Shown one piece after another: positions 61,201 through 64,000 of a DNA stretch of 64,000 nucleotides. The translations under genes and the position numbers were made by a program. Below the pieces are notes generated by a model that was given only the letters and a program-made list of their open reading frames with translations, was not told where the DNA came from and did no database searches. The stretch covers positions 22,446-86,445 of the forward strand of contig JAISLY010000060.1 in NCBI GenBank assembly GCA_031277035.1, read 5' to 3'. The stretch is from Coriobacteriales bacterium. Its GTDB lineage: Bacteria; Actinomycetota; Coriobacteriia; Coriobacteriales; UBA8131. Position 1 is the first letter of the stretch. Every line of letters begins with the position of its first letter.

Positions 61201-62742
61201 TTAGCCCGCAGCTCCGTCCAAATTCGGATCGGAGGTGGGCTTGGAGCTGAGGTTGGGACTGGGATTGGGGCTGGAATCGGAGTCGGGGGCGGGGTCGGGG
61301 GCGGGGTCGGAGTCGGAGTCGGAGTCGGGAGCGGAGTCTGGCTGGAAGCCGGGATTGGAGTTTGAGCTGGGGCTGGCATCGGGGGTGGGGGTCAAAGCGG
61401 GCCTGTCGCGTTGGACGGCCTCGACGCGCCAGGCCTCCCAACCGCGTTCGCCGGGCGCATAAAAGCTCCCACGCTGAAGGCCATCGGGCAGATAGTGCTG
61501 CTCCACATAGCCACGCGCGTCGAGATGCGGATAGTGATACTTCCCATAGCCCTCTGAGCCGGGACGATGGCGGTCGCGCAGATGATTGGGGACCGCGCGA
61601 AGAGGGCCTGAGCGCACTTCGCCCAGTGCGGCAAAGATGGCATTCGTCGCAGAGTTTGACTTGGGCGCAAGCGCCAGGTAGATGGCCGCCTGGGCGAAGT
61701 TCAACTGACATTCAGGGTATCCGATACTTTCCGCCGCCTTGAAGGCAGCCTGTGCGATGAGCAGGGCCTGTGGGTCGGCGTTGCCAACGTCTTCACTCGC
61801 AAAGATGAGCATTCGCCGCGCGATGAACCGGGGATCCTCTCCGCCTTCAATCATGCGCGCCAACCAGTACACGGCCGCGTCCGGATCCGACCCGCGCATG
61901 CTCTTGATGAAGGCGGAAATCACATCGTAATGGACATCGCCTTTCTTGTCGTAGGGCAGGGCGCGGCGGGGCGTGGCGCCAAGCACATCGTCGAGGGTGA
62001 TGACCGCGAGCGGCAAAACGCCGGGGGCGTGTGCCAGGCTCTCGTCGGGGGCGTGTGACAAGGCGCTGGTGGCAAGCTCGGCGGCAAGCTCCAGAGTCGT
62101 CAGCGCTGACCGGGCGTCCCCTCCTGCCATGTTGATGATGGCCGCACGCGCCTCATCGGTAAGCTCGCAGACGCCCGCCAGTCCCCGCTCGTCAGAAAGG
62201 GCGCGGTCAAGGACAAGGGAGACGTCCTCGTCGGTAAGCGTCTTGAACTCGATGACGCGGGAACGCGAGATCAGGGCGCTGTTTACCTCGAAAAAAGGGT
62301 TTTCTGTCGTGGCGCCGATGAGAATGACAATGCGATCCTCAACCGCGTGCAGCAGCGCGTCTTGCTGTGAACGTGAGAAGCGGTGTATCTCATCGACAAA
62401 AAGGATGGTGCGCTGTTCCTGGAGCGTGAGGTTTCGTTTGGCCTCTTCGATAACGCGGCGCAGGTCGCTTACGCCGCCGGAGATTGCACTGACCTCGGTG
62501 AAGTTCGCCCTGGTCATGCCGGCGATGATGCGTGCAAGCGTGGTCTTTCCGGTACCAGCCGGACCGAAGAGAATGATGGAGGAAAGCGTGTCGCCCTCAA
62601 TGGCTCCACGCAGCCACGTGCCTTCTCCAACGACCTCGCGTTGCCCAACCAGATCGTCAAGTGTCCGAGGACGCATGCGTACGGCCAGCGGCGCGACGCT
62701 CAAAAGCGCCTCGTTCTCGATGGGTGTGAACAGGTTATCCAT
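61201..62742 (-). CDS. rarA: Replication-associated recombination protein RarA (MgsA)
   Basis: A 513-residue AAA+ ATPase acting at stalled forks. Walker A GPAGTGKT, Walker B TILFVDEIHRF, sensor region GATTENPFF, and the C-terminal tetramerisation part (ISAFIKSMRGSDPDAAVYWLARM, LDARGYVEQHYLPDGL). The last about 60 residues are a Pro/Asp/Ser repeat (PDSDSDSDPAPDPAPDS). The ATG at 62742 has no ribosome-binding site; TACAAT ends 7 bases upstream, so the mRNA may be leaderless. Confidence 0.93.
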   Translation of the reverse strand: MDNLFTPIENEALLSVAPLAVRMRPRTLDDLVGQREVVGEGTWLRGAIEGDTLSSIILFGPAGTGKTTLARIIAGMTRANFTEVSAISGGVSDLRRVIEEAKRNLTLQEQRTILFVDEIHRFSRSQQDALLHAVEDRIVILIGATTENPFFEVNSALISRSRVIEFKTLTDEDVSLVLDRALSDERGLAGVCELTDEARAAIINMAGGDARSALTTLELAAELATSALSHAPDESLAHAPGVLPLAVITLDDVLGATPRRALPYDKKGDVHYDVISAFIKSMRGSDPDAAVYWLARMIEGGEDPRFIARRMLIFASEDVGNADPQALLIAQAAFKAAESIGYPECQLNFAQAAIYLALAPKSNSATNAIFAALGEVRSGPLRAVPNHLRDRHRPGSEGYGKYHYPHLDARGYVEQHYLPDGLQRGSFYAPGERGWEAWRVEAVQRDRPALTPTPDASPSSNSNPGFQPDSAPDSDSDSDPAPDPAPDSDSSPNPSPNLSSKPTSDPNLDGAAG

Positions 62743-62900: not shown

Positions 62901-62925
62901 AAAGGGTGGCTTGACGCCACCCTTT
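62901..62925 (-). terminator. Intrinsic terminator of the 6S RNA
   Basis: AAAGGGTGGC and GCCACCCTTT form a perfect 10-bp stem with a 5-base loop, starting 6 bases after the 6S 3' end on the minus strand. The U-run is short (three T). Remaining bases 62743-62900 (leader of rarA) contain GGCTGCAG repeats but no gene. Confidence 0.65.
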
Positions 62926-62930
62926 GTTCT

Positions 62931-63101
62931 CGGCACCTCACTCCCAAGCCGGAAGGATGAACCCACCTCAAAAAGGTGGGTACCCGCGCCCGGTTTCCAG
63001 CTTCCCCAGCAAGGAGGATACCTGTCTACCAAGGTATCTGGGCTCCCTATTCATAAATGTCGGTCCATCTAATAGACCGGACTCGAGAATGAGGCTGCCT
63101 T
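62931..63101 (-). ncRNA. ssrS: 6S RNA
   Basis: About 170 nt on the minus strand. The ends close as an 11-bp stem: GGCA-g-CCTCATT (63099-63089) pairs with AGTGAGG-TGCC (62942-62932). Inside are a stem CGGTC/GACCG, a terminal hairpin CCCAGATACCT/AGGTATC-CTGGG, and in the 3' strand of the bubble the typical hairpin CCCACCTttttgAGGTGGG followed by GTTCAT. Length, closing stem, large bubble and apical hairpin all match 6S RNA. It lies just upstream of rarA, a neighbourhood known for 6S RNA in Firmicutes. It would regulate RNA polymerase by mimicking an open promoter. Confidence 0.8.
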
Positions 63102-63103
63102 TA

Positions 63104-63132
63104 AGCCTAGCACTCCTCAATGCCGGATGGAA
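63104..63132 (-). promoter_or_regulatory. Promoter of the 6S RNA
   Basis: On the minus strand TTCCAT (63132-63127) and TAGGCT (63109-63104), 17 bases apart, precede the 6S start by a few bases; TG lies 2 bases before the -10, an extended form. Confidence 0.5.
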
Positions 63133-63327
63133 CACCGTTCACCGAACTCTGCCGCCTCTTGTCAGCGCAGTGCCGAATGAAATCCTTAGCGCAAATCCCC
63201 TTGCACTTAGTCTGTCGCGCACTGATGCCTCCCCACGTGGGCGAAATCCCCTATCCTTGACTGCCTGTCCCCCTGGCAGGCAGGCGGCTTTCACGCGCAG
63301 ACATACGGATAGAAGGGAATGAACGAT
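63133..63327. mobile_element. Probable left end of an IS30-like insertion element
   Basis: This gap between the 6S promoter and the transposase start has no gene, is less GC-rich than its flanks, and holds the imperfect palindrome CTGCCTGTCCCCCTGGCAGGCAG-like (about 63260-63283). I cannot identify the terminal inverted repeat without the right end, so the boundary is approximate. Confidence 0.4.
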
Positions 63328-64000
63328 ATGCCAGGAGAGACAAGCTACAGCCACCTCGACTTTGAGAGGAGATGTACGATAGAGAAGTACCTGAACCACG
63401 GGATGACATTGAGTTGGATAGCCAACGAGGTCAACATGCCGCTGTCGACGATAAGCCGTGAGGTGAGGCGTAACAGGCGCGATGACGGTTTTACCAAGAC
63501 AGAGAAGGTGACCAACATCTGCAGGCACAGGAGAAACTGCGCCGTCAGGCTTTTGTGCAAGGGCAGGAGGTGCCGGCGGAGGTGCTCGGCATGCCAGGAG
63601 GTGCGCTGCTCAAACACCTGTGGGCACTACGAGGCGGAGGTGTGCCAAAGGACGGCGCGGGCGCCTTGGGTCTGCAACGGCTGCCCAGGGACCTGGGGGT
63701 GCAAGCTGCACCGCTTTCGCTACGACGCAAAGGTCGCCCAAAGGTCTGCCGATGGCAGGCTCAGCGGCTCACGCAAGGGCGTGAACAAGACCGAAGATGA
63801 GTTCAAGGCGATTATCGATACCGTAAAGCCCTTGCTGGACAAGAAGATAGGCCTTGACGCCATCTGGTGCAAGCATGGCGCCGAGCTCGGCATATCCAAA
63901 CGCACGCTGTACCGCTGGGCAGAGGCAGGATACGGGCTTTGCAACATGGATTTGCCTAAGAAGGTCTCCTACAAGCCGAGAAGATCCACCCAAAGCACCA
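63328..64000 (+). CDS. IS30-family transposase, 3' end beyond the window
   Basis: An open frame of at least 224 codons runs from ATG 63328 (AAGGGA 9 bases upstream; ATG 63319 is an alternative) to the window end without a stop. LDFERRCTIEKYLNHGMTLSWIANEVNMPLSTISREVRRNR is the IS30 helix-turn-helix; a Cys-rich zinc-binding part (CRHRRNC, CKGRRCRRRCSAC, CNGC) follows, and LDAIWCKHGAELGISKRTLYRW is the second HTH-like part. The DDE core would lie further right. The element's left end must fall between the 6S promoter and 63320; a stem CTGCCTG/CAGGCAG at about 63260-63282 may be near it. Confidence 0.85.
   Translation, partial: MPGETSYSHLDFERRCTIEKYLNHGMTLSWIANEVNMPLSTISREVRRNRRDDGFTKTEKVTNICRHRRNCAVRLLCKGRRCRRRCSACQEVRCSNTCGHYEAEVCQRTARAPWVCNGCPGTWGCKLHRFRYDAKVAQRSADGRLSGSRKGVNKTEDEFKAIIDTVKPLLDKKIGLDAIWCKHGAELGISKRTLYRWAEAGYGLCNMDLPKKVSYKPRRSTQST

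Follow-up and report, generated by a model that had tools for sequence, protein, structure and literature searches.

6S RNA is a small RNA by which RNA polymerase is blocked when growth stops. In the Bacillota (RF00013; B. subtilis 6S-1 and the lactic acid bacteria), it is made up of a closing stem, an apical stem and a central bubble whose 3' side carries a hairpin; a CC in the template is read as GG in the pRNA, and rarA is the neighbour. These features recur at the locus described here, where the template is a prediction. The E. coli version (ssrS) shares the open-promoter architecture, but it lies in another gene neighbourhood and shows little sequence identity outside the core. A third system is Ms1 (the MTS2823 homologue of Mycobacterium, scr3559 in Streptomyces), which comes from the same phylum as our locus and also forms a stem with a central bubble, but its partner is core polymerase and it lies in another gene context; it is about 300 nt long and holds extra hairpins at its 5' and 3' ends (PMC9130861). 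Actinobacteria are said to be without 6S RNA, save a disputed candidate in Streptomyces (PMC9130861, PMC11077062), and Coriobacteria are not mentioned in either of these papers. A literature search for 6S RNA together with Coriobacteriia found no paper, and some members may have been listed earlier. A broad survey of 6S RNAs is reportedly that of Wehner et al. in 2014.

The window (the whole stretch of DNA that was analysed, 64,000 nucleotides long) belongs to a member of the Coriobacteriia, in agreement with the actinobacterial host proposed in a first-pass annotation. Its region 62931-63101, on the minus strand, is almost certainly a 6S RNA gene, judging by sequence homology, structure, conservation and gene context. 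The first-pass annotation had placed a 6S-like RNA there, with correct coordinates and strand, and had proposed a covariance search with RF00013. In a permissive Rfam search over 621 bases, this model matches 62934-63095 of the minus strand, the core of the RNA, over its full length (positions 1-187 of 187) with 36 bits and E = 1.1e-5; the search of the whole genome gives E = 7.3e-6 and no other match. The score lies under the gathering cut-off of 46.4 bits, which counts against the 6S reading; this cut-off is a curation threshold and not a biological property. Rfam at curated cut-offs returns no match in the 64-kb window, so that automatic annotation would probably miss the RNA. Relatives do exceed the threshold, among them a genome of the same family with 48.1 bits (G032). 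Weaker Rfam matches (isrB, BASRCI337 and PrrB_RsmZ) fall far under their own cut-offs and are taken as chance.

The RNA is widespread among the relatives of this bacterium. With RF00013, matches were obtained in 21 of the 33 genomes of the window's family. A covariance model derived from 41 class-wide sequences (R1) finds the RNA in 27 of the same 33, including all four of good quality; on the window, which is itself among the 41 sequences, R1 matches 62926-63103 with 163.6 bits, the next best score in the window being 5.9 bits. Genomes outside the model are also matched, namely those of Slackia piriformis, Gordonibacter sp. An230, Parvibacter caecicola, Curtanaerobium respiraculi, Adlercreutzia hattorii and Olegusella massiliensis, with E values from 5e-22 to 5e-20; among isolates outside the model, the values go down to about 1e-22. 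In a sample of 300 Coriobacteriia genomes, 298 of them with a completeness of 90% or more and little contamination, RF00013 gives matches in 282, with 45 over the cut-off. An apparent 'short 6S' of 137 nt (L023/G666) proved to be an assembly gap of N and not a variant.

Folded alone, the 171 nt of the minus strand reach -81.7 kcal/mol, for which comparison with dinucleotide shuffles gives z = -4.95. The closing stem, for which 11 bp had been proposed, is longer, with 17 pairs and one bulge, its 5' strand at 63094-63077 pairing with its 3' strand at 62952-62936, and two-sided compensatory changes appear in 12 of 16 of its pairs among the 41 class-wide sequences. In the alignment of these sequences as a whole, 14 pairs show two-sided changes; shuffles give 8.9 ± 1.5, and none of 500 reaches 14. 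Paired cells make up 89.8%, compared with at most 55.4% when the partners are slid. The long closing stem, the central bubble and the apical stem-loop (GGGAGCCC ... GGGTACCC, 62978-63047, minus strand; class-wide, 97.2% of its cells pair) are thus all upheld by covariation. On the 3' side of the bubble lies a hairpin (62965-62977, minus strand) formed by ACCT...AGGT and extendable to CCCACCT/AGGTGGG; this longer form and the GTTCAT that follows it, both pointed out in the first-pass annotation, occupy 62980-62957. Across 20 family sequences aligned over promoter and RNA, GATGGACCGACA, CAGG, CCCACCTT and GGTGGGTTCAT are nearly invariant. Compared with the Bacillota RNAs, the window's sequence has drifted far enough to fall under the Rfam cut-off, the very conserved motif pair GAUGGACCGA / AGGUGGGUUCAUCC marks the Coriobacteriales version, and one gene per genome was found here instead of two.

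An inner closing helix is formed between GATGGACC (63062-63069, minus strand) and GGTTCATC (62956-62963, minus strand), according to the pairing in the window and the family alignment; all eight pairs of GAUGGACC:GGUUCAUC are present in the window, and 98.8% of the family cells are paired. The predicted pRNA template GATGGACCGAC (63059-63069, minus strand) was located by homology to known pRNA sites and by column counts. Alignment to 6S RNAs of known start site puts the start opposite C63059, from where GAUGGACCGAC would be copied into a pRNA beginning 5'-GUCGGUCCAUC. A study of 6S RNAs from lactic acid bacteria describes as general marks of pRNAs a GG at positions 4/5 or 5/6 and an adenine adjoining the start (PMC8414754). 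The predicted template has both, with GG at positions 4/5 of its pRNA and an A beside the start. Of the 41 sequences, all keep the template CC that encodes this GG, 39 have the start C and 36 have the A after it. The predicted GUCGG also aligns with the start of the E. coli 6S pRNA, which we take to be AUCGG. One observation counts against the 6S reading: in the lowest-energy fold of the window's RNA the template lies in a local 5' hairpin, GGUCUAUUAGAUGGACC, and not in the inner helix, the difference being 2.7 kcal/mol. In several relatives the two folds are nearly balanced, and it is possible, as a speculation, that the RNA switches between them during pRNA synthesis.

Both ends of the putative transcription unit were recognised by comparison with relatives and not by scan. 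Upstream, a -35-like element TTCCAT (63132-63127, minus strand; TTG-type in relatives) and a -10-like element TAGGCT (63109-63104, minus strand) make up the promoter TTCCAT-N17-TAGGCT that had been proposed, whose position is conserved: at the site of the -10 element, 19 relatives carry a recognisable box, mostly TATACT. A consensus promoter scan did not pick this promoter up because it is too weak. The strong hairpin noted earlier as a terminator is likewise found 3' of the RNA (62925-62901, minus strand), as AAAGGGTGGC GTCAA GCCACCCTTT with the tail CTC. In 19 of 20 family loci, all but L013, the closing stem is followed by a terminator-like hairpin whose sequence varies, and that of the window was not picked up by a terminator scan because it lacks five T. 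Four other loci differ from the window's family, with its separate terminator hairpin, in that the closing stem's 3' strand is followed immediately by at least five T (L029, L033, L036 and L043), so that the stem may act there as its own terminator.

By analogy with known 6S RNAs, we infer the transcription, holoenzyme binding, pRNA synthesis and timing of the window's RNA as follows. The gene would be transcribed from its own promoter up to the hairpin terminator before rarA, and the RNA would fold into the long closing stem, central bubble and apical stem-loop in imitation of an open promoter. Its target would be the primary-sigma form of the RNA polymerase holoenzyme, which it would bind, most probably during stationary phase, and keep off promoters. 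When NTPs return, the polymerase would start on C63059 and synthesize the pRNA, which is predicted to open the inner closing helix, refold the bubble and release the polymerase.

A different reading is that this is an RNA of the Ms1 type, known from Mycobacterium and Streptomyces, which associates with core RNA polymerase lacking sigma and has only the look of a 6S RNA. The shared phylum favours it, and so does the precedent that Ms1 was initially mistaken for 6S RNA from its fold; that structure-based '6S' candidates in Actinobacteria turned out to be Ms1 weighs against the 6S reading (PMC9130861). Nevertheless, the conserved unit measures about 170 nt plus terminator, not about 300 nt, and is devoid of the additional end hairpins of Ms1, while it matches the sequence and structure model of RF00013 over its full length, conserves a predicted pRNA template and adjoins rarA as in the Bacillota. 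Moreover, RbpA is present in genomes of the presumed Actinomycetes class but in none of the 11 Coriobacteriia tested. Taken together, these data make an Ms1-type RNA improbable.

A second alternative is that this is a structured leader regulating rarA in cis, in favour of which are the shared strand and the position upstream of that gene. The gene rarA (MgsA family AAA+ ATPase; MgsA_C, PF12002, E = 2.3e-61 with Pfam) is found at 61201-62742 on the same strand as the RNA, its start at 62742 being 190 nt downstream of it, and rarA follows the RNA directly in most family loci that hold this gene. Beyond its conserved part, the RarA protein ends in a tail of about 70 residues in which Ser, Asp and Pro abound (61204-61400, minus strand). 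In rarA loci fetched by protein similarity, R1 places the RNA on the upstream side of rarA in the majority of Coriobacteriia, with weak matches at the same place in Brevibacillus and other Bacillota, and RF00013 has strong matches in the vicinity of rarA in Anoxybacillus, Brevibacillus and Tumebacillus. The neighbourhood that had been described as shared with Firmicutes 6S genes therefore recurs in both groups. However, a leader is hard to reconcile with the terminator-like hairpin between RNA and rarA, and the linkage is not strict, which argues in the same direction. In seven Eggerthellaceae-type loci (L029, L032, L036, L040, L042, L043 and L051), the 6S gene stands on the strand opposite to rarA, and it must have been inverted locally or have moved while still remaining a neighbour; in Adlercreutzia, Parvibacter and Olegusella, the RNA is distant from rarA or on a different contig; and in other orders the two are separated by about 600 bp that contain an open frame. 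A cis-acting leader is consequently very improbable. Less probable still is that a 132-aa open frame on the plus strand (62924-63322) is the actual gene and the pairing incidental, since the frame exists but relatives carry indels whose lengths are not divisible by three, and conservation tracks base pairs and not codons in an alignment without a conserved frame. On the other side of the RNA, a transposase-like frame (HTH_38; presumably IS30-like) occupies 63319-64000 of the plus strand; its start lies some 190 bases upstream of the 6S promoter, and it is cut off by the end of the contig.

The 6S interpretation made in the first-pass annotation is thus supported by the RF00013 match, conservation, covariation, the positions of promoter and terminator, and the rarA neighbourhood. 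We hold the full reading with high confidence: the locus would be the ssrS of a Coriobacteriia bacterium, with its own promoter, a terminator before rarA, an open-promoter mimic, and predicted holoenzyme binding and pRNA release.

Beyond this class, the distribution of 6S RNA was compared with that of RbpA. In a draw of 397 genomes of the phylum, RF00013 matches 142, of which 83 are outside Coriobacteriia, with scores of up to 102 bits. When RbpA (PF13397) is considered as well, 6S alone is found in 142 genomes of the same draw, RbpA alone in 61 and neither in 194, and no genome has both. The absence of RbpA as a simple counterpart of 6S RNA is weakened by those 194 genomes, and common descent could suffice to explain the exclusion without any functional link, phylogeny being a confounder. 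No RF00013 match was obtained in the 148 genomes of one class (that of G349), presumably the Actinomycetes, whose genomes measure 6 to 10 Mb and often encode two RbpA proteins. We assume that, by class, the published Ms1 orders are correctly assigned to the Streptomyces-Mycobacterium side. The orders in which Ms1 has been listed all fall on that side (PMC9130861). A tentative scenario, about which we are slightly more doubtful than confident, is that 6S RNA is ancestral in Actinomycetota, has remained near-universal in Coriobacteriia and is kept in several other lineages, and was lost in the Actinomycetes lineage, which has Ms1 instead and the sigma-anchoring RbpA.

The statement that Actinobacteria have no 6S RNA is wrong for Coriobacteriia. 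Most homologues in this class score under the Rfam cut-off, which is probably why they have been overlooked; the cut-off hides a whole class, and a revised model would repair this. That 6S RNA is near-universal in Coriobacteriia, and occurs in cultured members from the gut (Slackia and Parvibacter among them), corrects the published absence and provides tractable organisms for studying how and where the phylum went from a holoenzyme-binding 6S RNA to the core-binding Ms1.
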